Of a stretch of DNA of 32,539 nucleotides, positions 12,572-32,481 are shown piece by piece. Source of the DNA: Halorubrum yunnanense (lineage in GTDB: Archaea; Halobacteriota; Halobacteria; Halobacteriales; Haloferacaceae). The first letter of the stretch is position 1; each line of letters opens with the position of its first letter. The position numbers and the translations under genes are program-made. The stretch spans positions 31,374-63,912 of the forward strand of contig NZ_JAODIX010000011.1 of NCBI RefSeq assembly GCF_026586675.1, read 5' to 3'. The notes under the pieces were generated by a model, which saw only the letters and a program-made list of their open reading frames with translations, made no database searches and had not been told where the DNA came from.

Positions 12572-12883
12572 ATGACCTCGATTGTCCGGAACGAGGCGAT
12601 TCGCTCCGGCGAGGCGCGCGTGGAAGGGACGCGGATCACCGTGCGCGACGTCAAGCGGCGCGTGATCGACGCCGATGAGGATCCACACGTCGTCGCCGGC
12701 GAGTACGAGATCTCGATGGCCGACCTCTTCGGCGCGCTCGCGCACTACTACGAACACCGCGACGCGTTCGAGGGCGACGAGCGGGAGGCCGAGCGGACAC
12801 GGCGCGACGGCGAGCGACAGACGCGCGCCCTCGTCGAGGAACTCCACGGCGAGAACTCGGGGTCGACAGAGGACGCAGCGTAG
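12572..12883 (+). CDS. DUF433 antitoxin-like protein
   Basis: 103 residues. The DUF433 pattern is clear: IVRNEAIRSGEARVEGTRIT, then VRDVKRRV and the helix-turn-helix HVVAGEYEISMADLFGALAHYYEH, followed by an acidic Arg/Glu-rich tail. DUF433 proteins are the antitoxin partners of DUF5615 PIN-like proteins, and such a gene follows 2 nt downstream. It is divergent from the UPF0175 operon with 160 nt between the starts. The upstream segment gactaaacggatatc at about 12540 could hold the promoter. The gene itself looks intact although its toxin is frameshifted. Confidence 0.88.
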   Translation: MTSIVRNEAIRSGEARVEGTRITVRDVKRRVIDADEDPHVVAGEYEISMADLFGALAHYYEHRDAFEGDEREAERTRRDGERQTRALVEELHGENSGSTEDAA

Positions 12884-12885
12884 TC

Positions 12886-13211
12886 GTGTCTCGGATTCTC
12901 GCCGACGCGAACGTGCCCGAAGAGTACGTCTCCGCGCTCCGAGGTGACGGGCACGATGTGGTGTACTCCCGGGAAATATCCGAACTCGGCCCGGAGGCGA
13001 CCGATGACGCGATCGCGGCGTACGCCGAATCCGAAGCGATGGCGATCATCACGACCGACGTGAAAGACTTCGCTGATCGAGACGCCGTCGTCCCGGTCTT
13101 CGTCGCACCGCAGGACATGACCGGCGGGGCGTCCGTGCAGCGGTCGCACGTATCGAGGCGCTGCCGTTCGATCCGGCGGAGACGGAGCCGATCTGGCTCT
13201 CGGCGCTTTGA
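12886..13211 (+). pseudogene. DUF5615 PIN-like toxin, frameshifted
   Basis: The N-terminal ~80 residues read as a typical DUF5615 protein: ILADANVPEEYVSALRGDGH with the first Asp, HDVVYSREI, then IITTDVKDF with the second acidic site. After PQDMTGGA at about 13130 the frame breaks. A single added base after gcg (13127-13130, ggggcg) restores a sensible end, VRAAVARIEALPFDPAETEP followed by IWLSAL and a TGA at 13209-13211, which gives 108 residues, the normal family length. The unshifted frame runs on to 13329 as Arg/Ser-rich noise. Start is GTG, 2 nt after the DUF433 stop. Either a real one-base deletion or a sequencing error in a G-rich run. Confidence 0.75.
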
Positions 13212-13250
13212 TCGCCGTTCCCGCGACCGATTCCGACTTCCGGGCGAGTC

Positions 13251-13427
13251 ACGTGTATCGGTCCGGAGCAACGCACCACCCGCGTTCGATCGCCGCGTCG
13301 TTCGTCTCGCGTCTCCGATCGGACGATAGCTCTCCGCGTTTCACCGGCGAGAGAACCACGGACGCGGGTGGAGGTGGTGTGCGTGCGGCGTTTGCTCTGT
13401 GTACGATATATTCGTAGGTTTCGACGG
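13251..13427 (-). pseudogene. Relic of a UPF0175/PIN toxin module
   Basis: On the minus strand 13390-13427 repeats the promoter region of the intact UPF0175 operon. About 100 nt further on, a frame ends in AAIERGWCVAPDRYT, which aligns with AMIDHGWDVAPDVYT near the C-terminus of the intact PIN toxin at 11606-12124. The antitoxin and most of the toxin are missing, as if by an internal deletion. The intervening sequence has no recognisable gene. The rest of the 13212-13533 gap contains only the promoter of the next gene. Confidence 0.6.
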
Positions 13428-13533: not shown

Positions 13534-13824
13534 ATGTCAGAAACGGGTACAAACGACGCCGAAGTCGACGATCCCGAGACGACGACGATCAACGTCCGCG
13601 TCACCGAACGCCAGCTGGCGGAGATCGACGCGGTCTGGAAGGAGGAGGGGTACACCTCTCGGAGCGAGTTCCTTCGGCACGCGATCCGTGACGCGACGGA
13701 TCATCCCGGCGCGTCACGCAGTATGTTGGCGAGCATCGCCGCCGAGGAGTACGCGATGCGAAACGGTGAGAGCGAGGCCGTCTCTCGCGATGAGGTCGTC
13801 GATATGATCGATGACGAGGAGTGA
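13534..13824 (+). CDS. Ribbon-helix-helix (CopG-type) antitoxin
   Basis: 96 residues. An acidic leader precedes the RHH fold, TTINVRVTERQLAEIDAVW then EEGYTSRSEFLRHAIRDA, in which the first strand binds DNA and the helices dimerise. The acidic C-terminal tail ending in DMIDDEE would wrap the toxin. It overlaps the RelE-like gene by 14 nt, the usual sign of a type II toxin-antitoxin pair. Likely represses its own promoter together with the toxin. Confidence 0.88.
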   Translation: MSETGTNDAEVDDPETTTINVRVTERQLAEIDAVWKEEGYTSRSEFLRHAIRDATDHPGASRSMLASIAAEEYAMRNGESEAVSRDEVVDMIDDEE

Positions 13825-14098
13825 CGACTGGACGTGGGAGTTCCGGCCACCCGCTGCGCGGGCGTTTGAGGGACTCGATACGCCGATACAGCAGCGTATC
13901 GTCTCGAAGCTCGACGACATCGTGACTGACGAGTGGCGGGACCCACCCGAGTATATCGAACCGCTGTCGGGCGTTCCGCACGGTAAAATTCGGATCGGTG
14001 ACTTTCGGTTGGGAGCATCTGCCGATCGGGATCGAGAGGTAGTGGTAATCTACGATATCGAGCACCGATCGGGTGCGTACCGACCCGGCGACGACTGA
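13811..14098 (+). CDS. RelE/ParE-superfamily toxin
   Basis: 95 residues. The RelE layout is visible: WEFRPPAARAFEGLDTPIQQ (first strand and helix), RIVSKLDDIV, PLSGVPHGKIRIGDFRLGAS (the conserved R-I-G-x-[FY]-R-L segment of the central sheet) and VVVIYDIEHRSGAYR (last strand with the basic C-terminus). These toxins generally cleave mRNA at the ribosome or inhibit gyrase; which applies here cannot be told. The ATG lies within the antitoxin 3' end. The short gene at 14116 follows after 17 nt and may belong to the operon. Confidence 0.88.
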   Translation: MTRSDDWTWEFRPPAARAFEGLDTPIQQRIVSKLDDIVTDEWRDPPEYIEPLSGVPHGKIRIGDFRLGASADRDREVVVIYDIEHRSGAYRPGDD

Positions 14099-14401: not shown

Positions 14402-15211
14402 CTAGCCGCCGAACGGATCGGTTTTCGTGTCGTCTGTAGCGACCGTGTTTCCGGTACTGTTGTCCGAACTATCCGGCTTCACGAAGACGCCCTCGATCCC
14501 TTCAATCTCGATACCGGCGATTGATCCCTCCAGATCGCCGTCGAAATCCTCGACACCGAGGTTTTCGTTCACCAGAACGTACTCGAAGTCGTCGCTAGAT
14601 GTCACGTTCCCGTCGTCCTCGCAGTATAATTTCGCGCTTACGACGCCGCTGACACCGCTGTTGCCGTTACTCTCACCGGTGAGTATCCGGAGATGTCCGC
14701 TATTGCCTGGGAACTTGACTTCTGTGACATGCCCGGTGACGTCTCGCGGTCGAAGCGTGAACTCCCGGGTCTTGTCGACGCTCGCGCCGCCGGCCTCGCC
14801 CGCGAACGACAGGGCGAACGACCCCTCACCCGCCTCGTCGAAATCGACCCGTACGTGCGCTTCGTTTCCGGGGCCGAGTTCGCCCTGACCGCTCTCGTCG
14901 TCTACGTCGATATCACTCTCTCCGCCCGTCCCGTCTACGAACGTTATCGGTCCCTCAGCCTCGATTTCGCCGATTGCGCCGTCCGCCGAGTTCAGCGTTA
15001 CCGTCAGGTCGAGGCGATCGGCGAACTGGTTTTTGATCTGAACCGCGTCCACCTCTTCGTCGACCGCTATTCCGAGGTACGCCTCGTCATCCTCCACGAC
15101 GTTCACCTCCACGCCGCGCTCGGCCTCGACGCTGCTGAACGCGCCGGTCCCCATGCTCATCGCGCCGGAGCTCGCGCCGCCGAGCAGCAGGATGAAGTTT
15201 CGTCGTTTCAT
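14402..15211 (-). CDS. Exported TasA/DUF1102-like acidic beta protein
   Basis: 269 residues. The leader MKRRNFILLLGGASSGAMSM has a twin-arginine pair and a hydrophobic core, followed by GTGAFSSVEAERGVEVNVVE and DEAYLGIAV, the pattern shared with the proteins at 16355, 16921 and 17505. The mature part is very acidic and strand-rich, with a segment VQIKNQFADRLDLTVTLNSA and a long C-terminal extension (from about 160) absent from the other copies. By analogy with TasA, processing would occur at the A-F junction in GTGAFSS. It is probably exposed at the cell surface. It lies 102 nt downstream of the membrane-bound regulator, both on the minus strand; ataacctta at about 15264-15272 (minus strand) may be its own promoter. 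Function inferred only from the family pattern. Confidence 0.75.
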   Translation of the reverse strand: MKRRNFILLLGGASSGAMSMGTGAFSSVEAERGVEVNVVEDDEAYLGIAVDEEVDAVQIKNQFADRLDLTVTLNSADGAIGEIEAEGPITFVDGTGGESDIDVDDESGQGELGPGNEAHVRVDFDEAGEGSFALSFAGEAGGASVDKTREFTLRPRDVTGHVTEVKFPGNSGHLRILTGESNGNSGVSGVVSAKLYCEDDGNVTSSDDFEYVLVNENLGVEDFDGDLEGSIAGIEIEGIEGVFVKPDSSDNSTGNTVATDDTKTDPFGG

Positions 15212-15313
15212 TTGCGATGGGATCGCACGGTTCGGTCACTCGACACAACGCGCCCCGACCCTAAGGTTATGCGGCGCCGGAACCCCGGAAGGCACTGCTT
15301 GAACACCGGCGCC

Positions 15314-15895
15314 TTACTGTAGTTCCGGGGGTTCCTCGGGTTCGCCGACCTTCATCTCCGTGGTGTAGTACTTGTGCGTGATCGCGGAGAACGCGAACGC
15401 GACGACGATGGCGACCGTCCACGCCATGTTGGGAAGGAGGACGAACGGCCACGCGCCGAGCCACACCGCGCCGGTGAGCGCGGCCGCGACGCCCGAGAGC
15501 CCGAGGTAGTAGTCGCTCCACGGGATCTCCTTCCCCTCGACGACGTCCATGTAGAGGTCGACGTTCTGGAGCGCGGGCGTCGGCTCGACGACCCCCCGGT
15601 CCTTGTTGAAGTCGACGACGCCCGCGTCGTCCATCTTCGGCAGGTGGGACTGCTGGAGCGCGGTGTACACGCGCTTGCGCTCGTTGCCCGTGATCTCGGC
15701 CGTGTCGATCCCGTTCTCCCACGCCGCTATCTGTTCGGCCATATCACCGATCTCGATCCGATCCTTCTCCCCTCGTTTCAGCAGATGGACCGCGAACCGC
15801 CGCCGCTGGTTCGCCAGCACGTCGAACAGCTCATCTTCGGACACCTCCGTCGTCGGTTCTACCCCTCCCCCGTCTACCTGCTGTACCGACGCCAT
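15314..15895 (-). CDS. Membrane-anchored winged-helix regulator, DUF7344 type
   Basis: 193 residues. The N-terminal half is a winged-helix domain of the kind now called DUF7344 in haloarchaea: SEDELFDVLANQRRRFAVHL, AAWENGIDTAEITGNERKRV then YTALQQSHLPKMDDAGVVDF. The C-terminal half has two hydrophobic helices (LGLSGVAAALTGAVWLGAW and WTVAIVVAFAFSAITHKY), so the DNA-binding domain would be held at the inner membrane face. It sits between the minus-strand TasA-like gene and the divergent three-gene TasA-like cassette, a natural place for a local regulator. The ATG at 15895 is preferred over a GTG five codons upstream. Confidence 0.82.
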   Translation of the reverse strand: MASVQQVDGGGVEPTTEVSEDELFDVLANQRRRFAVHLLKRGEKDRIEIGDMAEQIAAWENGIDTAEITGNERKRVYTALQQSHLPKMDDAGVVDFNKDRGVVEPTPALQNVDLYMDVVEGKEIPWSDYYLGLSGVAAALTGAVWLGAWPFVLLPNMAWTVAIVVAFAFSAITHKYYTTEMKVGEPEEPPELQ

Positions 15896-16354
15896 TTCTG
15901 TCTGACACACATGAATCGGCCAACATAAAACCCGCGGTCGTAATACTTTACCGAAGTTTCTCGGAGTTCAAAAACGGGTGGTGGTCGATCGCTCAAACAT
16001 CCGAAAACAGGTGTTTAAGTGTCCTATAGCATATTTTTCGAATTGGTTAGTACATTGTAAATTCGATTAGTCGGGCAAATTTATCAGATTATGTATCGTT
16101 TAACGGTCGATCGGCATCGTTCAGGCTGCGGCCGAACCGGGGAAGACTCGTCTTCAAGCGGCGATTGAACCGGGGCGGCCGCGGTTCAGGCGGGGGCAGA
16201 ACCGGGCGGCCGGGTTTCAGTCCCACCCGGAAGTGTTTCTGGAAATTCATAACGATATGGGATAGGCCCCATGGGTGTCGTAGAGCGACCCCGGGTGACG
16301 CGGGATGTCCCGCGTCGGCGGCCCGCGGGTCGTGTGCGAACACAGGTAACAACT
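15896..16354. promoter_or_regulatory. Long divergent intergenic region with AT-rich promoter zone and hairpins
   Basis: No gene is visible. The left half (about 15911-16110) is unusually AT-rich for this genome and probably contains the promoter of the minus-strand regulator. The right half holds inverted repeats: gttc-N11-gaac at 16119-16137, gaagac-tc-gtcttc at 16142-16155, tgaaccg-N9-cggttca at 16166-16188, and a third gaaccggg unit at 16199. The word gaaccggg(g) occurs three times about 33 nt apart. These may be operator sites or RNA stems before the cassette starting at 16355. Confidence 0.5.
16297..16316 (+). promoter_or_regulatory. Strong hairpin/palindrome before the TasA-like cassette
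   Basis: GACGCGGGA-TG-TCCCGCGTC is a perfect inverted repeat with 9-bp arms. It ends 38 nt before the ATG at 16355. It could be an operator or a stable stem in the leader RNA. Confidence 0.5.
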
Positions 16355-16918
16355 ATGACAAACCGACGCAAGTTCATGGCCGGATTGGGTGCATTAGCAT
16401 CAGGGAGTGCAGCAGCAATAGGTACTGGTGCGTTTTCAAGTGTAGAGGCCGAACGTGACGTTACCGTCGAAGTCGGCGGTGACAACAGCGCATACTTAGG
16501 ACTCAAGGCGGAGCGCGACGACATCATCAGCGACGATGGTGGTAATGGGCAGCTTAGTCTTGACTTCGGCTCGCAGACGACAAACAAAGGCGGTGAAGGA
16601 TTCAATGAGGACGCCGAGACAGAGATTGATGGTGTGTTCAAGATCATCAATCAAGGAACCAATACTGTCGCTGCTGGGTTCTCTCAGAATCCCAGCCGGC
16701 CCCTTTACAACGTCGGTGTCAAGGCTACCACGAAACCGATTGACGGCGTCGAGCTTGAGGTTCAGAACGCGGAATCGTTCGACGAAGGTGACAGTCAAGG
16801 TGCCGTCCTCAACCCTGGTGACAGCACGCTTGTTGACGTAACGGTCGATACGCTGGACGACGACCCAGAAAATGAGAACGGACAAGTGGTTATTGGAGCA
16901 TTCGTGGAGGACTTCTAA
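16355..16918 (+). CDS. Exported TasA/DUF1102-like protein, first of three in tandem
   Basis: 187 residues. The leader has a twin-arginine start (MTNRRKFMAGLGALASGSAA) and the shared GTGAFSSVEAERDVTVEV and NSAYLGLKAE elements. Next come a linker, the conserved ETEIDGVFKIINQGTNTV (a strand plus the N-x-G turn also seen in the next two proteins) and a C-terminal strand pair (STLVDVTVDTL, GQVVIGAFVED). Acidic and strand-rich, probably a secreted pilin- or fibre-like subunit; processing is expected near A-F in GTGAFSS. Codon use and G+C are much lower than in flanking genes (many gca, aca, tta and aat codons), which suggests transfer. It is followed 2 nt later by the next copy. Confidence 0.75.
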   Translation: MTNRRKFMAGLGALASGSAAAIGTGAFSSVEAERDVTVEVGGDNSAYLGLKAERDDIISDDGGNGQLSLDFGSQTTNKGGEGFNEDAETEIDGVFKIINQGTNTVAAGFSQNPSRPLYNVGVKATTKPIDGVELEVQNAESFDEGDSQGAVLNPGDSTLVDVTVDTLDDDPENENGQVVIGAFVEDF

Positions 16919-16920
16919 CA

Positions 16921-17484
16921 ATGAACCGACGTAGTCTCATCGCCGGTATCGGTGCATTGTCCACAGGTAGTGCCGCGGCGCTCGGAACCGGTGCGTTCTC
17001 GAGCGCAGCGGCACAGCGGAGTGTTAGTGTCCAAGTTGCTGACGACGCAAGTGCGTACCTCGCGATAGAGTCAACGAGCCAATACGCTGACGGAAGTGGC
17101 GACGCGATCGCCTTGGATTTCGGTACCCTCGTCGAAGATCAAGACGGAAACGATCTAGGTGAGCACGTCGGAGAAAATTCAAGCACAGTCTTCGGCAGTG
17201 GAGCTGCAGATAGAAATGTCTTCACTGTTCGCAATCAGGGTAGGAACAAGGTAAAAATATCCCCTCAATATCAGGTTCTGAGGTTCGACAGCGACGGAAA
17301 TTCGGTTGAAAGTGACGGTGAGTTGGCTATTGCGCTAGCCCTCGGTACTGGTAATGTATCTGAACAGGCAGAATTGTCGACAGGAGATTCGGCAGGGTAC
17401 TTTGTCCAAATCGTTGCAGGAGATAACCCACCGGACACCGTGACCGCAACGTTCGAAATCAACGCGAACGAGATCGAAGACTAA
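16921..17484 (+). CDS. Exported TasA/DUF1102-like protein, second of three
   Basis: 187 residues. Leader MNRRSLIAGIGALSTGSAAA, then GTGAFSSAAAQRSVSVQVAD and SAYLAIES. The central VFTVRNQGRNKVKISPQY matches VFKIINQG of the preceding protein, and the C-terminus (GYFVQIVAGDNPPDTVTATF) forms strands that would complete a jelly-roll-like sheet. Same low G+C as its neighbours. Start two nucleotides after the previous stop, so the two are translated from one mRNA. Sequence divergence from the first copy (only the leader and core strands are obvious) suggests different subunits rather than recent duplication. Confidence 0.75.
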   Translation: MNRRSLIAGIGALSTGSAAALGTGAFSSAAAQRSVSVQVADDASAYLAIESTSQYADGSGDAIALDFGTLVEDQDGNDLGEHVGENSSTVFGSGAADRNVFTVRNQGRNKVKISPQYQVLRFDSDGNSVESDGELAIALALGTGNVSEQAELSTGDSAGYFVQIVAGDNPPDTVTATFEINANEIED

Positions 17485-17504
17485 CAAGCTTATAAAGCCC
17501 CACA

Positions 17505-18083
17505 ATGAAACGACGCACCTTCGTATTTGGTCTGGGCACGGCTGTCACCGGCAGCGGTGCACTAATCGGTAGTGGGGCGTTCTCGAGCGCCGAGGCAGAA
17601 CGGAGTGTAAGCGTCGAGACCGCTGACGATGACGACGCGTACTTAGCGTTGATCAAAGGCGAGAGCGCTACTGATGATAGGGCCTACAGAGACGATGGAC
17701 AACTGAACTTCACCTTCCCCGGCCTACGGGAGAGAACTGATTGGCTAATCGACACCAACCCAGAGAATCCCGAAGGACTCGGAGAAGACTCAGTTTACCG
17801 ATTCGGGAGTGAAACTGACGGGGATCCGTTGTTCTTCTCGAGAAACCAGGGAACCCAGACGATCGAACTGTACAGTCGGCAGGATGATACAGAAGGTCTC
17901 CCACACGTTCAAATATTCAACGTGAACACGGGGGACCTCCTCACCGGAGACGGTACTAGAGCGGTCCTTGAAACTGGTGACTCGGTGCCACTCGGTCTTC
18001 AGATCGATACGACGGGGGTTGACGCACAAGAGAGTGCGTATAGCGTATCGCTGACAATTGTTGGCAAAGCAACGGAACAATAG
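17505..18083 (+). CDS. Exported TasA/DUF1102-like protein, third of three
   Basis: 192 residues. Leader MKRRTFVFGLGTAVTGSGAL, then GSGAFSSAEAERSVSVETAD and DAYLALIKGE. The central LFFSRNQGTQTIELYS corresponds to the VFxIxNQG element of the two preceding proteins, and ETGDSVPLGLQIDTTG plus AYSVSLTIVG form the last strands. 20 nt after the previous stop, with an AT-rich gttata-like spacer; same low G+C. Likely end of the transcript, since a 276-nt gap follows. Confidence 0.75.
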   Translation: MKRRTFVFGLGTAVTGSGALIGSGAFSSAEAERSVSVETADDDDAYLALIKGESATDDRAYRDDGQLNFTFPGLRERTDWLIDTNPENPEGLGEDSVYRFGSETDGDPLFFSRNQGTQTIELYSRQDDTEGLPHVQIFNVNTGDLLTGDGTRAVLETGDSVPLGLQIDTTGVDAQESAYSVSLTIVGKATEQ

Positions 18084-18359
18084 CCAATATAACTCCCCGG
18101 GTTGACGAAACAGAAGAACGCGATTCCGTCTTCTCCTTCTCTGTCGACTCTTGAACTATTGATAGCTTCACACCGATCCGACTCCGCTGGTAGGTATTCA
18201 GCGAGGGACACTGAAACGGCAATTCTAATTATTGGAACGTATTCTGAGGGAAATCATGCCGTTCGCCTGGCTGACATCTCGTTACAGGCAACCCCTTCAG
18301 CCGTTTCAGGCACCGCGTTATCAAGAGCCTACAGGCACAAGCAGAGGTAGACGTACCCT
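18084..18359. other. Noncoding gap between the cassette and the anchored protein gene
   Basis: AT-rich compared with the following gene. An open frame exists across it, but only with a TTG start, without a ribosome site, and its residues do not resemble an acidic halophile protein, so I treat it as noncoding. gttatcaa at about 18317-18324 lies roughly 40 nt before the ATG at 18360 and may be the promoter of that gene. No clear terminator stem was found. Confidence 0.4.
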
Positions 18360-19889
18360 ATGCCAACCCTCCGCCGCACCCTGATCCTCGCCCTCGTCCT
18401 CGTAGCCGCGGGTTCGCTGATCTTCACCACGGGCGCGGCGGTTATCGACGGCGACGCCGACACCTTCGCGGAGGACCGCCTCGCGATCCAGCCGGCCGAC
18501 GGCCCGAACGGGAACTATTCTTATTTAAATGACGACGACGAGATCGCGATCGACGTCTCGGCGTCGAACCCGAACATCCAGGATCCCTCCTTCGACGGCG
18601 TCAACGTCGACTCGACCGGGACGATCGACGACGTGTTCACGATCACGTACACGGCCGACCGGTACGCGCACGTGTGGATCGAGTACGACGGCGACGGCGA
18701 GGTCACGTTCGTCGCCGACGGCGACTCGATCGAGGGCGAGGCGAACAACGTCACGCTCGCGCCCAACCAGACCGTCACGGTCGGCCTCGAACTCGACACG
18801 CGCGGGAAGGCCGCCGGGACGCAGCTGGGCGCCGACGAGTTCTCGATCGAGGCGAAGATCGCGGAGCCCGACGCGGTCGGGGGAACGGGGGCGTCGACCC
18901 AGCAGACCGGCGACGGCGGCCCGACCACGACGGTCACCTCCCCGAGCGCGGACCGCCGCGAGTTCGTCGCGAGCGACGTCGAGCGCGGCGAGGCGGTCCA
19001 GTTCCTCGCCGAGGGAATGGAGATCGCCGGCGATGACGTGACGCTCGAAGGGATCGACTTGGAGGGCGTCCGGAACGAGCGCGTCGAACTGGACGCCGAG
19101 GGGAGCCGTGACTCCTTCGCGAACGGGAGCGCGCTGACGGCGCCGACCCGCCCGCGCCCGGTCGGGTACCTCTCGCTGGACTACGACTTCGCGCCCAACG
19201 CGGTCGACGCGATGACGATCCGGTTCAGCGCGGACCCGGCGTACCTCAACGAGACCGGGACCGACCCCGAGGACGTGACGCTCTACCGGCAGACGGAGGC
19301 GGGCGCGTGGGAGGAGGTGCCGGTCGAGATCGTCGACGAGGCGGTCGTGGAGATCATGGGGCTCCCCGAGGACCGCGTCCACTTCCGGGCGACGACCGAG
19401 GAGTTCTCCACGTTCGCGGTCGCGGAGCGCGTTCCCCGGTACGACGTGACCGAGGCGACGGTCGCGCCCGAGGCGGTCGACCCCGGTGAGAACGTCACGG
19501 TCCGGACGACCCTGCGGAACGGCGGCGGCGCGGCCGGCGAGCGCACGGTGACGCTGACGGCGAACGGCACCCCGGTCGCGAACGAGACCGTTTCACTCGA
19601 CCCGAACGAGACGGCGACGGTCGCGTTCGACGCGACCTTCGGGACCGCCGGCGCCTACGACCTCGCGGTCGACGGGACCGCCGTCGGGACGCTGCTCGTC
19701 GGCGACCCCGCGGGCGACGACGCGGGGGGATCGGGCGACGAGTCGAACGTCGGCAGCGACGAGTCCGCCACCGTCACCGGGACCACGGAGGAGCCGTTCG
19801 GGATCGACCCGGCGGATCTCGCCGGTCCGCTCGCGCTCGTGGTTATCGCCGTCGCCACCCTCGCGCTCGTCCGGCGGATGCCGCGATGA
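18360..19889 (+). CDS. Large membrane-anchored surface protein: TasA/DUF1102-like, PGF-pre-PGF-like and CARDB-like domains
   Basis: 509 residues. An N-terminal signal (MPTLRRTLILALVLVAAGSL) lacks the GTGAFSS form but leads into a region (about 30-170) with the same order of elements, including AIQPADGPNGNYSYL and DDVFTITYTADRYAHVWI. A Thr/Gly-rich linker follows, then a PGF-pre-PGF-like domain (about 200-356) ending in the characteristic EEFSTFAVAE, then a CARDB-like domain (about 361-448, VDPGENVTVRTTLRNGG), an acidic Gly/Ser linker and a C-terminal helix (about 487-504) followed by two arginines. N-x-[ST] sites are frequent. It would be exported and anchored in the cytoplasmic membrane, possibly as the base or receptor for the smaller TasA-like subunits. 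Normal high G+C. Confidence 0.78.
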   Translation: MPTLRRTLILALVLVAAGSLIFTTGAAVIDGDADTFAEDRLAIQPADGPNGNYSYLNDDDEIAIDVSASNPNIQDPSFDGVNVDSTGTIDDVFTITYTADRYAHVWIEYDGDGEVTFVADGDSIEGEANNVTLAPNQTVTVGLELDTRGKAAGTQLGADEFSIEAKIAEPDAVGGTGASTQQTGDGGPTTTVTSPSADRREFVASDVERGEAVQFLAEGMEIAGDDVTLEGIDLEGVRNERVELDAEGSRDSFANGSALTAPTRPRPVGYLSLDYDFAPNAVDAMTIRFSADPAYLNETGTDPEDVTLYRQTEAGAWEEVPVEIVDEAVVEIMGLPEDRVHFRATTEEFSTFAVAERVPRYDVTEATVAPEAVDPGENVTVRTTLRNGGGAAGERTVTLTANGTPVANETVSLDPNETATVAFDATFGTAGAYDLAVDGTAVGTLLVGDPAGDDAGGSGDESNVGSDESATVTGTTEEPFGIDPADLAGPLALVVIAVATLALVRRMPR

Positions 19890-20001
19890 CCGGCCGGTCG
19901 TCTCGGGGCGCCCTCGTTCGAACTGTCTTCCCGGACATCGATTTTTCAGCTCCGAGACGCGCGCCGACAGGTCTTACCCGCTGGTCGGCGAGGTCCCGCC
20001 C

Positions 20002-20907
20002 GTGACCGCGCCACCGACCGACGAGCGCGACCGCGCCGTCGGCGCCGCGAGCGCCGACCGGGACGCGGACCGGGCCCTCCGCCGGGAGCTGCTCGCGAGC
20101 GTTCGAGCCGTCGACCTGCTCGTCCTGCTCGCGGTGCCGGCGGTCCTGCTCGCGGTCTTCGCGCTCCCGGAGCCGACCCGTCGGTCACTCGCGTTCGCGT
20201 ACGCGGACCCGACCGTCCCGACCGCGTTCGCCGCGCACTACGTCCACCTCGACGCCGGCCACCTCGCCGGGAACGTGGCGAGCTACTGCCTCCTCGCGGG
20301 CGTCGGCTACGCGCTCGCGGTCCTCGGGGACGCCCGCCGCTTCTTTTTGACCGCGCTGGCGACGTTCCTGCTGGCGTTCCCGTTCGTGCTCTCGGGACTG
20401 AACCTCGCTGTCCCGCGGGACGCGATCGGGTTCGGCTTCTCCGGGATCAACATGGCGCTCGCGGGGCTGCTCCCGCTGCTGCTCGGGACGTACGCCCGCG
20501 AGCGGTTCGCCCCGGACGCGTCGCTCCGCGCGCTCCCCGCGGTCTTCTTCGCGCTCCTCGGCTGGATCGCGCTGCTCGCGCTCCCGCTCTCGACGACCGG
20601 CGTCGGGCTCGCTGGCCTCGCGGTCGGCGTCGCGGGCGCGCTGCTCGCGCTCCTCTACGCGTCGAGCGCCGGGATCCGCGTCCTCGCGACCGCGCGCGAG
20701 GGGCTCCGCGAGATCGCCTCCCGGCCGGGCGAAGGCGACCTCTTCGCCGTCGGCGCGGTCCTCGTCGTCGCCTACCCCGTCGTCGGGTTCCCGGCCGACC
20801 CGACCGGCGCCGGCAGCGTCGTGAACCTCTACGTCCACCTGCTGGGGTTCTGTCTCGCCTTCATCGGCCCCTTCGCGCTGCTCGCGGTCGGGGCGTTCGA
20901 CGAGTGA
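20002..20907 (+). CDS. Rhomboid-like intramembrane serine protease (divergent)
   Basis: 301 residues with about six or seven hydrophobic helices. Rhomboid landmarks are present: HYVHLDAGHLAGNVAS with His87 and Asn91 (H-x3-N), the active-site GFSG at 145-148 with Ser147, and His279 in NLYVHLLGFCLAF as the general base. Such proteases cut within the membrane and could release or mature membrane-anchored proteins; the gene just upstream encodes one. The N-terminal ~30 residues are charged and cytoplasmic. Start is GTG at 20002. The gap of 112 nt from the previous gene leaves transcription linkage uncertain. Confidence 0.75.
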   Translation: MTAPPTDERDRAVGAASADRDADRALRRELLASVRAVDLLVLLAVPAVLLAVFALPEPTRRSLAFAYADPTVPTAFAAHYVHLDAGHLAGNVASYCLLAGVGYALAVLGDARRFFLTALATFLLAFPFVLSGLNLAVPRDAIGFGFSGINMALAGLLPLLLGTYARERFAPDASLRALPAVFFALLGWIALLALPLSTTGVGLAGLAVGVAGALLALLYASSAGIRVLATAREGLREIASRPGEGDLFAVGAVLVVAYPVVGFPADPTGAGSVVNLYVHLLGFCLAFIGPFALLAVGAFDE

Positions 20908-21073
20908 GATCGCGAGACAGAGGGGCGCCCGCGCCGCGAGCCGCGAGCGTCCGACCCATTCTGCTCCGACCCACGGGCTTATAACGTCTCGCTGACATTC
21001 CACGATCGGAGCCACGCGCCGGACCCGTGACGAGATCGACGCCCGCGGCGTGGCGCTGCCACCGACACGACCC

Positions 21074-22237
21074 ATGTCACCGAAACGAGTATTCTCGATA
21101 ACGCTGCAGGTCGCGGTCGTCCTCGTCGTCCTCTCGCTGGTCGTCGGCCAGCTCCTCGGGCAGCCGATACTCCTCAGCTTCGTCGAGACCGGCAGCATGC
21201 AGCCCACGCTCGATCCCGGCGACGGGTTCGTCGCGATCCCCGCGCCGCTCGCCGGCGACGTCGGCGCCGGGGACGTGGTGACCTTCGACGCACAGGAGAT
21301 CGAGGGCGGCGGGTTAACCACCCACCGCGTCGTCGAGGAGACGGATCGCGGGTATATCACGCGGGGCGACAACAACCCGTTCACCGATCAGGACGGGGGC
21401 GAACCCGTTGTGCAGGACGCTGAGGTCGTCGCCGTGGCGCTCTCCGTGGGCGGGAGCGTAGTCGTCATCCCGCACCTGGGCACTGTCGCGATGGGGATCC
21501 AGTCGGGGCTCTCCTCGGCGCAGACGTGGCTGGCGGTCACGTTCGGCGTCCGCTCGTTCCAGGGGACCCAGGGGCTGGCGTACATCCTCTTCGGGCTCTC
21601 CGTGGTCGCGTACGTGGTCGACTGGTACCTCAACCGCAACGCGCGCGAGGGGCGCGAACGCGACCGCTCCCGCGACGACGGCACCTCCGTGTTCGTCATC
21701 GTCGGCGTCCTCGCCTTGGTGCTGATGGCGACCGCGACCGCGGCGATGATCGTCCCGGCCGGCACGCAGGAGTACGGCGTCGTGAGCGCCGAGTTCGAGT
21801 CGGAGAACCCCACCGTCATCGAGAGCGGCACGAGCCAGGAGCTGGAGTACGTCGTCCCCAACGCCGGCTTGGTCCCGGTGTACGCGTACGTCACCCCGGC
21901 GAGCCCCGGCGTCGAGGTCGACCCGCAGCGGCTCGCGGTCGGGAGCCGCGGCGAGGCGTCGACCACGGTGACGCTCACCGCGCCGCCCGAGACCGGCTAC
22001 TACCGGCTGTTCGTCGCCGAACACCGGTACCTCGCGGTGCTCCCGCACGGCGTGGTCGACGAGCTGTACGGCGTCCACCCGTGGGCGCCGCTCGTCGCGA
22101 TCAACGGCCTGCTCGGCGGCGGCATCGCCGGCCTCGGACTCGTCTTCCTCCGCGGCGAGCCCGCGCGTATCCGTTCCCGGGAATCGCGCGAGAACCCCCC
22201 GCTGTACCGCCGCCTCCTCCGCCAGTTCTACAGGTGA
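21074..22237 (+). CDS. SipW-like signal peptidase I (S26B) with fused ectodomain
   Basis: 387 residues, about twice the size of a simple archaeal or SipW-type peptidase. After an N-terminal helix (about 8-28) come the catalytic Ser41 in ETGSMQPTLDPGDGF, His84 in LTTHRVVEETD (His in place of the bacterial Lys, as in ER/archaeal and SipW enzymes) and Asp99 in ITRGDNN. A second membrane region and cytoplasmic loop (RNAREGRERDRSRDD) are followed by another helix (VFVIVGVLALVLMATATAAM), a beta-rich extracytoplasmic domain of about 120 residues and a final helix. The ectodomain is unusual and may bind substrates. It is followed 4 nt later by the DUF5305-like gene. The ATG at 21074 is preferred over a GTG 24 nt upstream. 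Confidence 0.85.
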   Translation: MSPKRVFSITLQVAVVLVVLSLVVGQLLGQPILLSFVETGSMQPTLDPGDGFVAIPAPLAGDVGAGDVVTFDAQEIEGGGLTTHRVVEETDRGYITRGDNNPFTDQDGGEPVVQDAEVVAVALSVGGSVVVIPHLGTVAMGIQSGLSSAQTWLAVTFGVRSFQGTQGLAYILFGLSVVAYVVDWYLNRNAREGRERDRSRDDGTSVFVIVGVLALVLMATATAAMIVPAGTQEYGVVSAEFESENPTVIESGTSQELEYVVPNAGLVPVYAYVTPASPGVEVDPQRLAVGSRGEASTTVTLTAPPETGYYRLFVAEHRYLAVLPHGVVDELYGVHPWAPLVAINGLLGGGIAGLGLVFLRGEPARIRSRESRENPPLYRRLLRQFYR

Positions 22238-22241
22238 CCGA

Positions 22242-23438
22242 ATGAGCGCTTCATCCCCCGACGAGACTCGACTTCGACTCCGCGCGATGCTGGACGCACA
22301 GTTCGCCGTACTCCTCGCCGTCCTGCTGATCGCGGCCGCCGCCGGCGGCGGGCTGGTCTACGCGACCCACGTCGATCCCGGCACCGAGGCCCGCGAGGAG
22401 ACCGTCTCCTCGTTCACGGTCGAGACGGCGTACGACCACTCCGCCGAGGTGACCGAGCCGAACTCGGTGTTCGAGACCGGAACGGTCCTCGACGGCCGGG
22501 AGACGTACTTCACGCAGGTCGCGCCCGTGCTCGACGTCGCCGTCGAGACGACCTACGCGGCCTCCTCGGCGTCGGACGTCGACGTCCGGTTCGACTCCGT
22601 GCTTGTCATCCGCAACGTCGGCGAGGAGGGCGGCACCGTCTACTGGAGCGAGCGGGAGCCCCTGGCGTCGGAGGCCGTCTCGGACGTCGAACCCGGCGAG
22701 ACCGCGGGGTCGTCGTTCGCGCTCAACAGCTCGGCGGTCGACGCGACCGCGGCCGCGATCGAAGAGGAGCTCGGCGCGTCGCCGGGCGAGACCGAGATGT
22801 TCGTCGTCACCGACGTGGCGGTCGAGGGAACGATCAACGGCGAGTCCACCTCGTACGCCCGGACGGTCGAGCTGGGGCTCGACCACGGCGGCGACACGTA
22901 CGCGGTCGACGATCCAGGGGTCTGGTCGGACACCGCCGAGCGCACGCGGACGGTGGCCGTCGAGCGGAGCTACGGCCCCCTCCGGTCGATCGGCGGTCCG
23001 CTCCTGCTCGCGGTCGGGCTCCTCGGGAGCGGCGCGCTGGCGTACGCCCGGCGGGAGCGCGACCTCGCGCTCACGCCCGCCGAGCGCGACTACCTCTCGT
23101 ACAGCGACGACCGCTCCGAGTTCGCGGAGTGGATCACGACCTTCCGGCTCCCGGCCTCCGTCCACGAGCGTCCCGAGGCCGAGGCGGAGAGCCTCCGCGA
23201 CCTTGTCGACTTCGCCATCGACAACGACACGGGCGTCGTGGAGGACCCCCGGACGGGCGCGTACCACGCCGTGTCCGGCGAGTTCGTCTACACCTACCGG
23301 CCGCCGTCGCCGCCGGCGGTCGCCCCCGAGGAGGGCGCGGACGACGATCCCCCCGCCGGCGACGTCGACGACGCCGACCCCTCCGACGACGCCGGGGCTG
23401 GCGGCGACGCCGGTATCGATCCCGACGACCGCGACTAG
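22242..23438 (+). CDS. DUF5305-like membrane protein
   Basis: 398 residues. One N-terminal helix (LLAVLLIAAAAGGGLVYA), a beta-rich exterior domain of about 200 residues (VSSFTVETAYDHSAEV, a Y-F-T-Q-V-A-P motif), a second helix (GPLLLAVGLLGSGALAYA), and a cytoplasmic part with a very acidic tail. This matches the haloarchaeal DUF5305 family, which I know as a frequent neighbour of signal peptidase genes; function unknown. Tight coupling to the peptidase (4-nt spacing) suggests that the two act together on exported substrates such as the TasA-like proteins. Confidence 0.78.
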   Translation: MSASSPDETRLRLRAMLDAQFAVLLAVLLIAAAAGGGLVYATHVDPGTEAREETVSSFTVETAYDHSAEVTEPNSVFETGTVLDGRETYFTQVAPVLDVAVETTYAASSASDVDVRFDSVLVIRNVGEEGGTVYWSEREPLASEAVSDVEPGETAGSSFALNSSAVDATAAAIEEELGASPGETEMFVVTDVAVEGTINGESTSYARTVELGLDHGGDTYAVDDPGVWSDTAERTRTVAVERSYGPLRSIGGPLLLAVGLLGSGALAYARRERDLALTPAERDYLSYSDDRSEFAEWITTFRLPASVHERPEAEAESLRDLVDFAIDNDTGVVEDPRTGAYHAVSGEFVYTYRPPSPPAVAPEEGADDDPPAGDVDDADPSDDAGAGGDAGIDPDDRD

Positions 23439-23610: not shown

Positions 23611-23761
23611 AGTCCCGTGGTGTAGTGGCCAATCATAATGGCCTTTGGAGGGAATCCGTCCGCGTTCGCGGCTGAGACGCGACCACGGTCTGTCTCGTCG
23701 GAGACGACCGTCGGATGCCCGAAGTCAGCCATTGACGGCGGTTCGAATCCGCCCGGGACTA
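23611..23761 (+). tRNA. tRNA-Gln (UUG) with a 78-nt intron
   Basis: Acceptor AGTCCCG (23611-23617) pairs fully with CGGGACT (23754-23760), discriminator A at 23761. Anticodon stem ATGGC (23638-23642) pairs with GCCAT (23728-23732); the loop is C-TTTG-G-A with anticodon TTG at 23645-23647. The T arm is GGCGG-TTCGAAT-CCGCC (23737-23753). The intron spans 23649-23726, at the canonical 37/38 position. A bulge-helix-bulge is evident: CTTT (23643-23646) pairs with GAAG (23721-23724), flanked by 3-nt bulges GG/A and TC/A, and the inner helix ggg-a-atccg pairs with cggat-g-ccc. The intron also folds into a hairpin, acggtct-gtctc-gtcg-gagac-gaccgt. CCA is not encoded. Confidence 0.95.
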
Positions 23762-23876: not shown

Positions 23877-24030
23877 GCCTTCGAGACCGTCTCGCCTCGC
23901 TTTCCGGTCTCGCCCGAACACGGCATCTCGAAAAGCCACAGGAGTTTTGCCGCAGGCAAGCGGATGGAGGGGTAAGCGCCGATACCGCGGACGGCGGCAG
24001 CGTCGTATCGGCTGGAACAGACGATTCCTG

Positions 24031-26433
24031 ATGGCCCCTGACCTGACGCTCGTAACGACCGCCGTCGCGCTCCCTTTCGTGGCCGCAGCCGTCTCGCCGC
24101 TCCTGTATCGGGTCCTCGGCGAACGGACCGGCTACGCGGGGGCCGTCGTCGCGACAGCCAGTTTCGGACTGCTGGCGACGGGGGTCGACGATTACGGCAC
24201 CGTCGGAGTGTCGTGGGTCCCCGCGCTCGACGTGGGCATCCAGTTCACCGTCGACGGGTGGGGGCTCCTCTTCGCGCTCTTGGCCAGCGGCATCGGCGCC
24301 CTCGTGTTCGTGTACTCGACGTCGTACATGCACGGCGAGGAGGGGTTGGCGCGCTACTACGCGGCGCTGCTCGCGTTCATGGGGTCGATACTCGGCGTCG
24401 CGCTCGCCTCGGACCTCGTCTTTCTCTTCCTGTTCTGGGAGCTGACCAGCCTCTGTTCGTTCGTGCTCATCGGCCACCACACCGAGGACGCAGAGTCGCG
24501 CTACTCGGCGCGGATGGCCATGGTCGTGACCGTGGGCGGCGGCCTCTGCCTGCTCGCGGCGCTGCTCATGCTCGCGGCCGCGGCGCGGGGCGCCCTCGGC
24601 GGCGTGACGTTCGATCTGACGGCGATGATCGCGAACAGCGGGGCGATGCGCGCCGCTCTCCGCGAGTCGGGACTGTTCCTCCCGGCGCTCGGGCTGATCG
24701 TCGTCGCCGCGGCCGCGAAGTCGGCGCAGGTCCCGCTCCACTTCTGGCTGCCGAACGCCATGGTCGCCCCGACGCCCGTCTCCGCCTTCCTCCACTCCGC
24801 GACGATGGTCAAGGTGGGCGTCTACCTCCTCGGCCGCGTGCGTCCGCTCCTGATGAGTCCCGAATGGGTGCTGATCGTCGCGACGCTCGGACTCGTGACG
24901 ATGACCGTCGGGGCGCTGCTGGCGGTGGCCTCGACCGACACCAAAGAGCTGCTCGCCTACTCGACGGCGAGCCACCTCGGGCTGATGGTCGCCGGCTTCG
25001 GCTTCGACATCGGCTACGGCGCCGAAGCCGGCGCGTTCCACCTGCTCAACCACGCGCTGTTCAAGGCGCCGCTGTTCCTCGTCGCGGGGATCGTCGTCCA
25101 CGAGGCCGGGACCCGCAACCTCAACAACCTCGGGGGGCTGTGGCGGGAGCTGCCGGTCACGGCCGCCGTCACCGTCGTCGCCGCGTTGAGCATGGCCGGC
25201 ATCCCGCCGTTCAACGGCTTCTACTCGAAGGAGCTGCTGTTCGAGGCCGCGTACGAAGTGGCCCACGAGGCCGGCGGCCTCGCCTGGCTGTATCCCGCCG
25301 TGGCGACGCTCGCGAGCGTGTTGACCGTCGTCTACTCGCTGACGTTCCTCGCGCTGTTCTTCGGCGAGCGGCGGGCCCCGGCCGCCGACGTCCACCGACC
25401 GCCGGTCACGCTGATCGGGCCTCCCGCGGTGTTGGCCGTCGCGGCGGTCGTCGTCAGCGTCGCGCCGCAGTTGGCGGTCGACGCCATCGTCCAGGGGGCC
25501 GTCGACGCGACCGCCACCGGCGAGGCGCAGCTCGCGGTCGGACTGCCCACTCACCTTTCGCCTCCGGTCGCGATGTCCGGCGTCGCCGTCGTCGGCGGGG
25601 TCGCCGCGTACCCGCTCCGCGGGCGTCTCGCGACCGGCGTCCGACGCGGCGTCGACGCGCCCGTTCCCGTTCGGCCCAGCGGGTGGTATGACTGGGTCGT
25701 CTCGACCACGACGGCGACGAGCGCCCGGTTCGGCTCGGCGGTCCACAACGGTCTCCTCCGGAGGTACGTGGGATGGACGGCAGCGGCCGGGAGCCTGCTC
25801 GCGCTCGCCGGCTTCGCCGCCACGGGAGCCCCCGCCCCCGGCGCGCTCGGCGGGACCGGCGTCACGCTGGCGGTCGCCGTCGTGTTGGGGGTCGCGACCC
25901 TCGCCGGCGTGGCCGTGGCGGCCGCCGCGTCGCACGTGTCCGGCGTGCTCACGCTGTCGATCCTCGGGTTCATGCTCGCCATCTTCTTCATCCTCGCGAG
26001 CGCGCCGGACCTGGCGCTCACGCAGCTGGTCATCGAGACGCTCATTCTCCTCATGTTCCTCTTAGTGCTCCAGCGGCTGCCGTCGTTCTACTCGGAGATA
26101 CGGCCGCTCTCGATCGCCCGCGACGCGAGCGTCTCGCTCCTCGTGGGCGCGACGGCGTTCGTCGCGGTCCTCCTGACCATCCCGGATCCCGACGCCGACC
26201 CGACGAGCGTCGCCACGTACTACACGGAGCAGGCGGTTCCGGGCGGCGGCGGCACGAACGTCGTCAACGTCATCCTCGTGGACTTCCGGGCGTTCGACAC
26301 GCTGGGTGAGCTGCTGGTCGTCACGGTCGCCGCGATCGCCATCCTCGTGCTCGTGACGATGCGGACCCGCGGCGAGGCGTCCGAGGCCGCGAGCGACGGG
26401 GAGTCGATTCCCGACGGAGGTGACTCGCCATGA
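24031..26433 (+). CDS. mrpA: Mrp Na+/H+ antiporter subunit A
   Basis: 800 residues, the large antiporter-like subunit of the Mrp complex in the cytoplasmic membrane, homologous to NuoL. Seen are FLFLFWELTSLCSF with the functional Glu137, AAAAKSAQVPLHFWLP with Lys230 and His236, and FLHSATMVKVGVYL with His255 and Lys261, the proton-path residues of the family. The C-terminal part contains the DUF4040-type hydrophobic segment (VLTLSILGFMLAIFFILAS and DLALTQLVIETLILLMF) and then the MnhB-N-like helices (GATAFVAVLLTI; TLGELLVVTVAAIAILVLV). It is the first gene of a seven-gene operon; ATGA overlap with mrpB. The ATG at 24031 was chosen because the preceding in-frame residues are Arg-rich. Confidence 0.95.
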   Translation: MAPDLTLVTTAVALPFVAAAVSPLLYRVLGERTGYAGAVVATASFGLLATGVDDYGTVGVSWVPALDVGIQFTVDGWGLLFALLASGIGALVFVYSTSYMHGEEGLARYYAALLAFMGSILGVALASDLVFLFLFWELTSLCSFVLIGHHTEDAESRYSARMAMVVTVGGGLCLLAALLMLAAAARGALGGVTFDLTAMIANSGAMRAALRESGLFLPALGLIVVAAAAKSAQVPLHFWLPNAMVAPTPVSAFLHSATMVKVGVYLLGRVRPLLMSPEWVLIVATLGLVTMTVGALLAVASTDTKELLAYSTASHLGLMVAGFGFDIGYGAEAGAFHLLNHALFKAPLFLVAGIVVHEAGTRNLNNLGGLWRELPVTAAVTVVAALSMAGIPPFNGFYSKELLFEAAYEVAHEAGGLAWLYPAVATLASVLTVVYSLTFLALFFGERRAPAADVHRPPVTLIGPPAVLAVAAVVVSVAPQLAVDAIVQGAVDATATGEAQLAVGLPTHLSPPVAMSGVAVVGGVAAYPLRGRLATGVRRGVDAPVPVRPSGWYDWVVSTTTATSARFGSAVHNGLLRRYVGWTAAAGSLLALAGFAATGAPAPGALGGTGVTLAVAVVLGVATLAGVAVAAAASHVSGVLTLSILGFMLAIFFILASAPDLALTQLVIETLILLMFLLVLQRLPSFYSEIRPLSIARDASVSLLVGATAFVAVLLTIPDPDADPTSVATYYTEQAVPGGGGTNVVNVILVDFRAFDTLGELLVVTVAAIAILVLVTMRTRGEASEAASDGESIPDGGDSP

Positions 26434-26894
26434 CGACGACGATCATGCGGACGACGGCTCGGGTGACCGTTCCCGTCGTGCTCGTCGTCGCGATCTCGCT
26501 GTTCTTGCAGGGCCACAACCTGCCCGGTGGCGGCTTCATCGGCGGTGTCCTCACCGCGGCGGCGTTCGTGCTGATATACGTCGCCTACGACCTCGACTAC
26601 TTGGAGTCGGGGGTGCTCGGCAGGGAGGTCGAGCACGGCACCAGCGTGTTCGAACAGCGCACGGTCACCGCCTACCGTCGCATATTACTCGCGGGCCTGG
26701 TGGTCGTTCTCGCCAGCGGCTTCGGCGGGATGCTCATCGGCGACCCGTTCCTGACGCAGGGGTACGTCCACCTCGAGGGGGTCCCGATATACCGCGAGGT
26801 CGAGCTCGCGAGCGCGCTCCTCTTCGATCTGGGCGTGTACCTCGTCGTTGTCGGCAGTGTTTTGACTATCGTCTCGGTGGTGAGCGCCGAATGA
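26430..26894 (+). CDS. mrpB: Mrp antiporter subunit B
   Basis: 154 residues with four hydrophobic helices. The MnhB signature FLQGHNLPGGGFIGGVLTAA is clear, and the C-terminal helix ends LVVVGSVLTIVSVVS. It works with the C-terminal part of MrpA in the membrane arm. The start overlaps the mrpA stop (ATGA at 26430-26433). Its own stop overlaps the ATG of a 17-codon mini-ORF that leads to mrpC. Confidence 0.95.
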   Translation: MTTTIMRTTARVTVPVVLVVAISLFLQGHNLPGGGFIGGVLTAAAFVLIYVAYDLDYLESGVLGREVEHGTSVFEQRTVTAYRRILLAGLVVVLASGFGGMLIGDPFLTQGYVHLEGVPIYREVELASALLFDLGVYLVVVGSVLTIVSVVSAE

Positions 26895-26944
26895 GCCGGC
26901 GCAGCGAGACGACATCGGCCGGATACGGAGCTGACGGCCGATGA
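26891..26944 (+). CDS. 17-codon mini-ORF linking mrpB and mrpC
   Basis: It encodes MSRRSETTSAGYGADGR. Its ATG overlaps the mrpB TGA (ATGA, 26891-26894) and its TGA overlaps the mrpC ATG (ATGA, 26941-26944). All other junctions in this operon are direct overlaps, apart from the mrpF-mrpG gap, which is filled in a similar way. The peptide is probably not functional by itself; the mini-ORF may let ribosomes cross the 46-nt gap by termination-reinitiation. Chance is possible. Confidence 0.4.
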   Translation: MSRRSETTSAGYGADGR

Positions 26945-27285
26945 GCGCCGCCCTCGCGGTCGCGGTCGGCGGGCTGTTCGCTGTCGGAACGTTCCTGCTC
27001 CTCCAGCGGGACCTAGTGCGGGTCGTGTTCGGGATCGCGGTCGTCTCCCAGGCCACGTTCGTCTATCTGATCGCGATGGGCGGTATCGAGGAGGGAACGG
27101 GTGATCTCGTCCCCGTCCTCGACACTCACGGCGGCGCAGTCCCCGAGATCGCCGACCCGGTGGTACAGGCGCTCGTCCTGACGGCGATCGTCATCAGCTT
27201 CGGAACGACCGCGCTGGCGCTCGTCTTATCGTACCGCGCCTACGAGGAGAACGAGAGCATGGACGTCACGGAGTGGTCCCGATGA
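26941..27285 (+). CDS. mrpC: Mrp antiporter subunit C
   Basis: 114 residues, NuoK-like with three helices. FLLLQRDLVRVVFGIAVVSQ and PVVQALVLTAIVISFGTTAL are the usual MrpC segments; the loop between helices 2 and 3 is acidic and halophile-like. ATGA overlap with mrpD at 27282-27285. Confidence 0.95.
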   Translation: MSAALAVAVGGLFAVGTFLLLQRDLVRVVFGIAVVSQATFVYLIAMGGIEEGTGDLVPVLDTHGGAVPEIADPVVQALVLTAIVISFGTTALALVLSYRAYEENESMDVTEWSR

Positions 27286-29855: not shown

Positions 29856-29862
29856 CTACGTC

Positions 29863-32037: not shown

Positions 32038-32256
32038 TGCGCTTGACGAACGTCGAACGGACGGGAATAACAGGATTCCCTACCGAGACAGCAGGTTCCA
32101 TCGGAACGGCGTTCTAGCGGACTTACAATCGGTTTCAGGGTGTCGTTGAGCGTCTTCAATCGACGCTTTCTGAATTTCAGTCGCCCCATTACTACCCCGT
32201 CGGTAGCTCTGAAGAAAACCAATGAGCGATGGAGTTGACTCTCCGTGTGGTCTCCG
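32038..32256. other. Intergenic region with several inverted repeats
   Basis: No gene is seen. It contains gggaat-N6-attccc at 32063-32080, gttcc-atc-ggaac near 32094-32106, and agcgtc-N7-gacgct at 32149-32167 followed by a short T run, which could terminate the preceding gene. The promoter of the truncated TasA-like gene should lie in the AT-richer part after 32160. Confidence 0.4.
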
Positions 32257-32481
32257 ATGACCCGGTGGCGTCGCGTCGCCGTGGTGTTGGTCGCAGTGTC
32301 GATCGTCACGGCCGGGATTCCGATGACTGGTGCCTTCTCCAGCGTTTCGGCCGAGAGAACGGTGTCCGTCGGTGTCGCAGAGGACGACGAAGCATTTCTC
32401 TCGCTGGAGCCGTCGAACGGTCCCAACGGCGCGTACGCCGAGCAGTCTGGCGGAACGCTCGAACTGAACTTGCCTTGTTGA
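32257..32481 (+). pseudogene. TasA/DUF1102-like gene, truncated copy
   Basis: The N-terminus MTRWRRVAVVLVAVSIVTAG then IPMTGAFSSVSAERTVSVGV and DEAFLSLEPSNGPNGAY has the leader, T-G-A-F-S-S junction and first strands of the TasA-like family seen at 14402-18083; NGPNGAY also matches GPNGNYSYL in the large protein at 18360. After GGTLELNLPC the frame ends at 32481, at about 74 residues, where other members continue for 110 or more. The abrupt break at about 32470 (gccttgttgaatgcaagac, with cttg/caag inverted) suggests an insertion or deletion whose other side lies outside the window. A GTG 12 nt upstream is an alternative start. Confidence 0.6.

Follow-up and report, generated by a model that had tools for sequence, protein, structure and literature searches.

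Tat-fimbriae were described only very recently, in 2025. The name tafi denotes the Tat-fimbriae of haloarchaea (Galeva et al., iScience 2025, as cited in PMC12687288), and the Protein Data Bank holds an entry entitled "Structure of Natrinema sp. J7-2 Tafi pilus" (PDB 9P0A). Named tafi proteins are collected in the NCBIfam equivalogs TafA, TafC, TafE and TafF (NF052520-NF052523), from Haloarcula and some Halorubrum loci. Other fibres to be compared are TasA of Bacillus subtilis with its peptidase SipW, the bundling pili of Pyrobaculum (PDB 7UEG) and the thread of Sulfolobus acidocaldarius (PDB 7PNB), an archaeal donor-strand fibre (PMC11607397).

The DNA analysed here, referred to as the window, is a stretch of 32,539 nucleotides from Halorubrum yunnanense. 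An original prediction, made from its letters, had described nine genes within 9 kb as a candidate TasA/SipW-like fibre locus. All nine genes were found (Table 1), but the nearest named system proved to be the Tat-fimbria. Sequence and gene order place the locus with the Tat-fimbriae and not among TasA, SipW or Taf equivalogs in the strict sense, and it can be said with good confidence that the window carries a locus for the biogenesis of tafi-class fimbriae, from a third and uncharacterised lineage.

Table 1. Features of the candidate Tat-fimbria locus and of a related sequence in the window
Feature	Coordinates	Strand	Characteristics
P0001, 269 aa divergent pilin-like protein	14402..15211	-	Tat leader KRRNF, GTGA|FSS junction; TafA 41, TafE 37, TafC 25 bits, all below cut-off
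P0009, DUF7344 winged-helix protein, C-terminal membrane segment(s), putative regulator	15314..15910	-	DUF7344 E 1.7e-30
Conserved promoter region and leader of pilin 1	16180..16434	+	Nucleotide comparison with other Halorubrum loci
P0002, pilin 1	16355..16918	+	Tat leader NRRKF, predicted cut A26|F27; TafE 61 bits; 9P0A E 3.4e-12
P0003, pilin 2	16921..17484	+	Tat leader NRRSL, GTGA|FSS
P0004, pilin 3	17505..18083	+	Tat leader KRRTF, GSGA|FSS
P0005, membrane-anchored pilin relative, TafF-like	18360..19889	+	DUF1102, PGF-pre-PGF and CARDB domains; C-terminal membrane segment
P0006, divergent rhomboid-type intramembrane serine protease	20002..20907	+	Catalytic pattern; co-occurrence with P0005
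P0007, S26 signal peptidase, Ser/His/Asp type	21050..22237	+	C-terminal beta-rich stretch between membrane segments
P0008, DUF5305, putative assembly partner	22242..23438	+	Two membrane helices around beta-sandwich ectodomain, cytosolic tail; E 1e-53
Start of further pilin-like leader and domain (RWRR...MTGA|FSSVSAER)	32245..32481	+	Part of giant gene broken by apparent insertion sequence

As had been predicted, P0001-P0004 are small acidic proteins (27-56 Asp/Glu against 9-16 Lys/Arg) with a common leader and a G[TS]GAFSS junction. The motif RR-x(12-24)-G[TS]GAFSS occurs five times in the window, in these four proteins and in the truncated relative at 32245, and not once in 200 triplet-shuffled windows. 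Absent from the prediction was the twin-arginine nature of the leaders, which are weakly hydrophobic after the arginine pair in the manner of Tat signals; because of this leader type, the pilins are very probably exported by the Tat rather than the Sec route. Judged by motif, they thus bear the Tat leader of tafi proteins. Among 130 pilin homologues in related loci, the arginine pair was present in 121 and G[TSGA]GA followed by Phe, Leu or Tyr in 104 (Phe in 84). A shared FxxxNQG strand, predicted for all four proteins, was found in P0002-P0004, with P0001 having "KNQF" only.

P0001-P0004 belong to no Pfam family, and none of them matched the TasA/camelysin Pfam family at E ≤ 1. All four gave sub-threshold matches to the fimbrial families TafE and TafA, and the Taf equivalog cut-offs were missed by the window proteins throughout (61 bits against 155 for TafE, 42 against 190 for TafA, 25 against 410 for TafC and 29 against 420 for TafF). 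The 9P0A pilin also falls under the TafA and TafE cut-offs, at 53 and 77 bits, so missing them does not exclude a tafi in the broad sense.

Chain C of 9P0A is the sole solved sequence relative of the pilins, found by phmmer with an E value of 3.4e-12 and with a profile of the four proteins at 8.5e-23. In this entry 188 of 215 residues are modelled and the last aligned residue is 215, lengths from which the model would start at Phe28, the F of GTGA|FSS. The claim that the mature pilins start at the F of AFSS is thereby supported by a homologue, modelled from the predicted GTGA|F cut. The 9P0A pilin is encoded in genome G202 (100% identity over the 184 residues searched), where a leftward DUF7344 gene is followed by rightward genes for the pilin, a DUF1102-anchored protein, the peptidase and DUF5305 (locus L120). 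The window pilins are clustered in the same way with DUF7344, a DUF1102/TafF-like protein, an S26 peptidase and DUF5305. In a related genome (L124) there are three pilins, and DUF7344 is separated from the forward ones by a pilin-like gene on the minus strand. In a Haloarcula cluster (L079) TafE, TafA and TafC, all over cut-off, stand together with DUF7344, DUF5305 and the peptidase.

P0005, described beforehand as a large membrane-anchored relative, is a true, if distant, relative of the pilins. Its DUF1102 domain was aligned to the pilin profile with an hhalign probability of 99.1% (E 4e-19; 99.5% with another sample), and 16 of 51 pilins themselves matched DUF1102. The leader of P0005 is strongly hydrophobic and of Sec type, the TGAF junction is also found in several of its relatives, and the 29-bit TafF match to its domain is weak (E 8e-7). 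It is conceivable, though unlikely, that the locus is an adhesin or matrix variant in which P0005 and the giant downstream pilin-domain protein are the functional parts and the small pilins mere connectors. The CARDB and PGF-pre-PGF domains of P0005 would fit such a variant, as would the pilin-like N-terminus heading a protein of roughly 2,300-2,600 residues, but small pilins are present in most loci, their homologue is the subunit of a solved pilus, and the giant gene lies ~9 kb away and is broken in this strain.

P0006 has no Pfam match and no solved homologue found by sequence, and scored 10 bits against 84 for the NCBIfam rhombosortase. It nevertheless has the catalytic residues of a rhomboid protease (GxSG serine, membrane histidine and H..H..N helix), as the prediction of a rhomboid-like protease had it, and the pattern H82..H87..N91, GFS147G, H279..G is kept in ~95% of 42 sequences. 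The rhomboid and the anchored protein occurred together in 38 cases, were both absent in 32 and occurred singly in 9 (Fisher p 5e-13 on 40 and 39 rows, with relatedness ignored). In 37 of 42 cases the rhomboid gene adjoins that of the anchored protein, and in one locus (L012) it adjoins a TafF-like gene. The rhomboid therefore appears to track the membrane-anchored pilin relative, a gene linkage that hints at release or trimming of P0005.

Structure prediction for the product of the gene at 16355 had been proposed as a check of the fibre hypothesis. An AlphaFold2 model of mature P0002, computed as a monomer only, has ten strands, a mean pLDDT of 76.6 and first residues of low confidence. Its best structural matches were 7UEG, the bundling pilus related to TasA (Z 7.9, with an rmsd of 3.1 across 114 residues), and 9P0A (Z 7.4), followed by the Sulfolobus thread 7PNB (Z 6.5), with FimA lower; TasA itself was not among the matches listed for this model. 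Z values of 7-8, all below 8, are modest alone, and common beta-sandwich matches such as MSP domains score in a similar range. Stronger evidence comes from the sequence relation to 9P0A, with which the structural matches agree. A generic beta-sandwich might also belong to non-polymerising proteins, either secreted in soluble form or forming a surface coat, with a processing enzyme in common, a reading helped by the overlap with such common folds and by the window clade being known here from genes alone. This reading is made distinctly improbable by direct sequence homology to a pilin whose pilus has been solved and which has leader, cut site and gene order in common with the window. The proposal that the locus makes surface fibres is supported by the homology to 9P0A and by the modelled fold, and the view of its product as a thin surface fibre, related in fold to bacterial biofilm fibres, seems largely right.

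The peptidase P0007 scored over the cut-off of the archaeal/ER-type signal peptidase I family TIGR02228 (55.0 against 51.85 bits), and its Ser49, His92, Asp107 and Asp113 are invariant in 60 of 60 relatives. The Ser/His/Asp pattern of SipW ascribed to it thus held, but membership of the SipW family did not, the NCBIfam equivalog giving 30 bits against a cut-off of 190. No solved homologue of P0007 was found by sequence. Its C-terminal beta-rich stretch was considered as a relative of the pilins, DUF1102 or DUF5305, and rejected when profile comparison showed no relation. A true TasA/SipW system, acquired from Firmicutes and exported by Sec, would share the peptidase chemistry and the TasA-related match 7UEG, but it is scarcely credible beside Tat leaders, DUF5305, DUF1102 and DUF7344 partners, exclusively archaeal relatives among those found, no camelysin/TasA Pfam match and the low SipW score. 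Of the TasA/SipW label originally given to the locus, the Ser/His/Asp chemistry stood, with a modest structural match to a TasA-related pilus, and sequence membership in TasA/camelysin or SipW was not supported.

A maximum-likelihood tree of the peptidases showed three groups. The first is of Natrinema type and weakly supported as a whole. The second is of the named Taf type (Haloarcula and several Halorubrum; support 100/99). The third (100/99) contains the window together with Halobellus, Haloparvum, Halobacterium, Halorussus, Natronomonas and others, as well as long-branched Methanofastidiosia peptidases whose placement is unsure. The named-type Taf locus and the window-type locus can occur in one and the same genome, as in G015, and are therefore paralogous; the peptidases of G015 are 43% (Taf-type) and 82% (window-type) identical to P0007. 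The window locus would thus bring the tafi to at least three lineages. With DUF5305 as marker (51 of 52 genomes, mostly in single copy), the third lineage appears in nearly every Halorubrum genome searched, and it extends to other haloarchaea.

P0008, earlier called DUF5305-like, is a true DUF5305 protein. Of 80 named DUF5305 loci, two come from Methanofastidiosia and nearly all from Halobacteria. A neighbouring peptidase gene was found in 77 of the 80 and pilin genes in 64; DUF7344 was present in 57, with 45 loci having the anchored DUF1102 protein and 40 the rhomboid. Given the few such genes per genome, the chance expectation for such co-location is a few per cent. A survey of the linkage between peptidase, DUF5305 and exported proteins, also proposed as a check, therefore finds them as neighbours, both across Halobacteria and around the gene of the solved pilin. 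Of the three outcomes named in advance as refuting the prediction, namely an unrelated fold, another mature N-terminus and a lack of linkage, none arose in the checks that were available. The P0008 model is confident (pLDDT 89) and places two membrane helices around a long-stranded beta-sandwich, followed by a cytosolic domain in which the segment DLVDFAID hardly varies; fold searches with it returned generic Ig-like and beta-sandwich matches only. The predicted membrane-bound winged-helix regulator, P0009, is a true DUF7344 protein with one or more C-terminal membrane segments, its regulatory role being putative. Pilin, anchored DUF1102 protein, Ser/His/Asp peptidase, DUF5305 and DUF7344 can now be named as the minimal kept set. 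No paper on DUF1102, DUF5305 or DUF7344 was found in the literature searched, and the locus gives all three a testable role.

Several further observations were made among the related loci. Outside the Halobacteria, two contigs of Candidatus Methanofastidiosia (L103 and L113) carry the peptidase-DUF5305 pair, and L113 also has a pilin-like gene. Another genome has, within 18 kb (L017, G016:C16:1-18000), three DUF7344 genes interspersed with about nine pilin-like ones; most of the pilin-like genes encode Tat leaders, and some of their products are 360-520 aa long. An apparent DUF5305-peptidase fusion in L111 was discarded, its upstream half being an out-of-frame reading of GC-rich DNA.

Pilins and machinery differ in how well they are conserved. 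Compared with the window, the peptidases of Halorubrum and close loci are 71-91% identical and their DUF7344 proteins mostly 74-91%, whereas the pilins are 27-51% identical or unmatched over 60% of length. The exception is H. kocurii, with pilins 78, 63 and 94% identical to those of the window; they are closer than the pilins of L034, yet the H. kocurii peptidase is the less similar of the two (86 against 91%). The three forward pilin genes have a GC content of 53-55%, their neighbours 61-75%. For pilin 1, median DNA identity is 85% upstream and 82% in the leader, and the mature part could not be aligned between species by gap-permissive global alignment. DNA conservation with L034, L020, L047 and L045 spans the promoter region and leader, ends at 16431-16439 and is found again from the start of P0005; the leader match of L045 is inverted. 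In 4 of 6 Halorubrum comparisons, conservation ends at, or no more than two codons from, the Phe27 codon (16433-16435).

Exchange of cassettes, with breakpoints close to where the leader ends, is one reading suggested by this pattern; very rapid divergence of the exposed parts could also account for it. Fibre subunits diversify much more quickly than the machinery does, which would not be surprising for a surface on which viruses or partner choice exert pressure. No silent pilin cassettes were found in the strain's own genome beyond the locus and the broken giant gene. A search for inverted repeats at the two divergent leaders, as for promoter inversion, gave two weak pairs only, of 19 and 26 nt, and the orientation of DUF7344 is constant in nearly all Halorubrum loci. 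A more speculative proposal, somewhat doubtful at present, is that of a pilin-switching island in which promoter, Tat leader and machinery stay constant and species swap whole mature-pilin cassettes at the junction of leader and mature part, the rhomboid releasing the anchored pilin relative and so controlling anchoring or shedding. If true, such switching would give each lineage a new fibre surface.

A mechanism for the Tat-fimbria reading can be outlined. P0002-P0004, possibly joined by P0001 as a minor component, would fold or part-fold in the cytosol and, to judge by their leaders, leave through the Tat translocon. Membrane-bound P0007 would then cut after GTGA or GSGA, so that the mature protein starts with Phe, as the homology to 9P0A supports. 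The related fibre structures and the disordered N-terminus of the model point to donor-strand complementation, in which the freed N-terminal strand would complete the beta-sandwich of the next subunit and build a thin fibre; by analogy, the fibre may work as TasA, the bundling pili and other donor-strand fibres do. P0005, with its membrane-fixed pilin-like domain, may start or anchor the fibre, and P0006 might conceivably trim or release it. DUF5305, being constantly linked to the peptidase, may hold subunits at the membrane or hand them over, and DUF7344 would control expression.

Other features were noted around the locus. The giant gene with a pilin-like leader is broken at ~32470 by an apparent insertion sequence, the end of which recurs at about a dozen places in the genome. 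Its remainder is a 2283-codon open frame at the start of another contig (L125, G000:C28:1-7000), with an apparent 10-bp duplication, AACTGAACTT, and in the sister genome G021 (L126) the gene is intact as a frame of 2613 codons. Directly upstream of the locus, two small gene pairs on the plus strand (12572-13329 and 13534-14098) resemble toxin-antitoxin modules, one DUF433/DUF5615 and the other a ribbon-helix-helix protein with a small partner lacking a Pfam match. A TnpB-like protein with a Cas12f1-like TNB domain (9533-10792, minus strand) is probably encoded by an IS200/IS605-type transposon gene. Downstream, Rfam places a tRNA gene of 151 bases at 23611-23761 on the plus strand (47 bits; missed by ARAGORN), a length that makes an intron probable, and just beyond it lie Mrp-type antiporter genes (23947-30272, plus strand; Proton_antipo_M, MbhD and MbhE domains).

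Among the known systems, the Sulfolobus thread is a structural match with no sequence relation to the window pilins detected in sequence and profile searches. The bundling pili and TasA/SipW share with the window the best structural match of the pilin model, the Ser/His/Asp peptidase and, in TasA, an aromatic residue near the mature start (PMC10269814); the window differs in its Tat-type leaders and extra archaeal partners, with no camelysin/TasA family match by sequence and a SipW cut-off far off. The named Taf loci are closer. They have the same part types, Tat leaders and DUF7344, with DUF5305 and the peptidase within the Haloarcula cluster and TafC placed after DUF7344 as P0001 is in the window, but the window proteins fall under every Taf cut-off. 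Closest is the Natrinema sp. J7-2 Tafi pilus, with a homologous pilin, an identical ten-residue GTGAFSSVEA junction and a matching gene set and order. The Natrinema locus has one forward pilin where the window has three, the window has a rhomboid gene between anchor and peptidase, and the two peptidases fall in separate clades at 44% identity. A named relative of the window locus thus already exists in tafi, and what is new is the third lineage, together with the details on pilin variability and the rhomboid.
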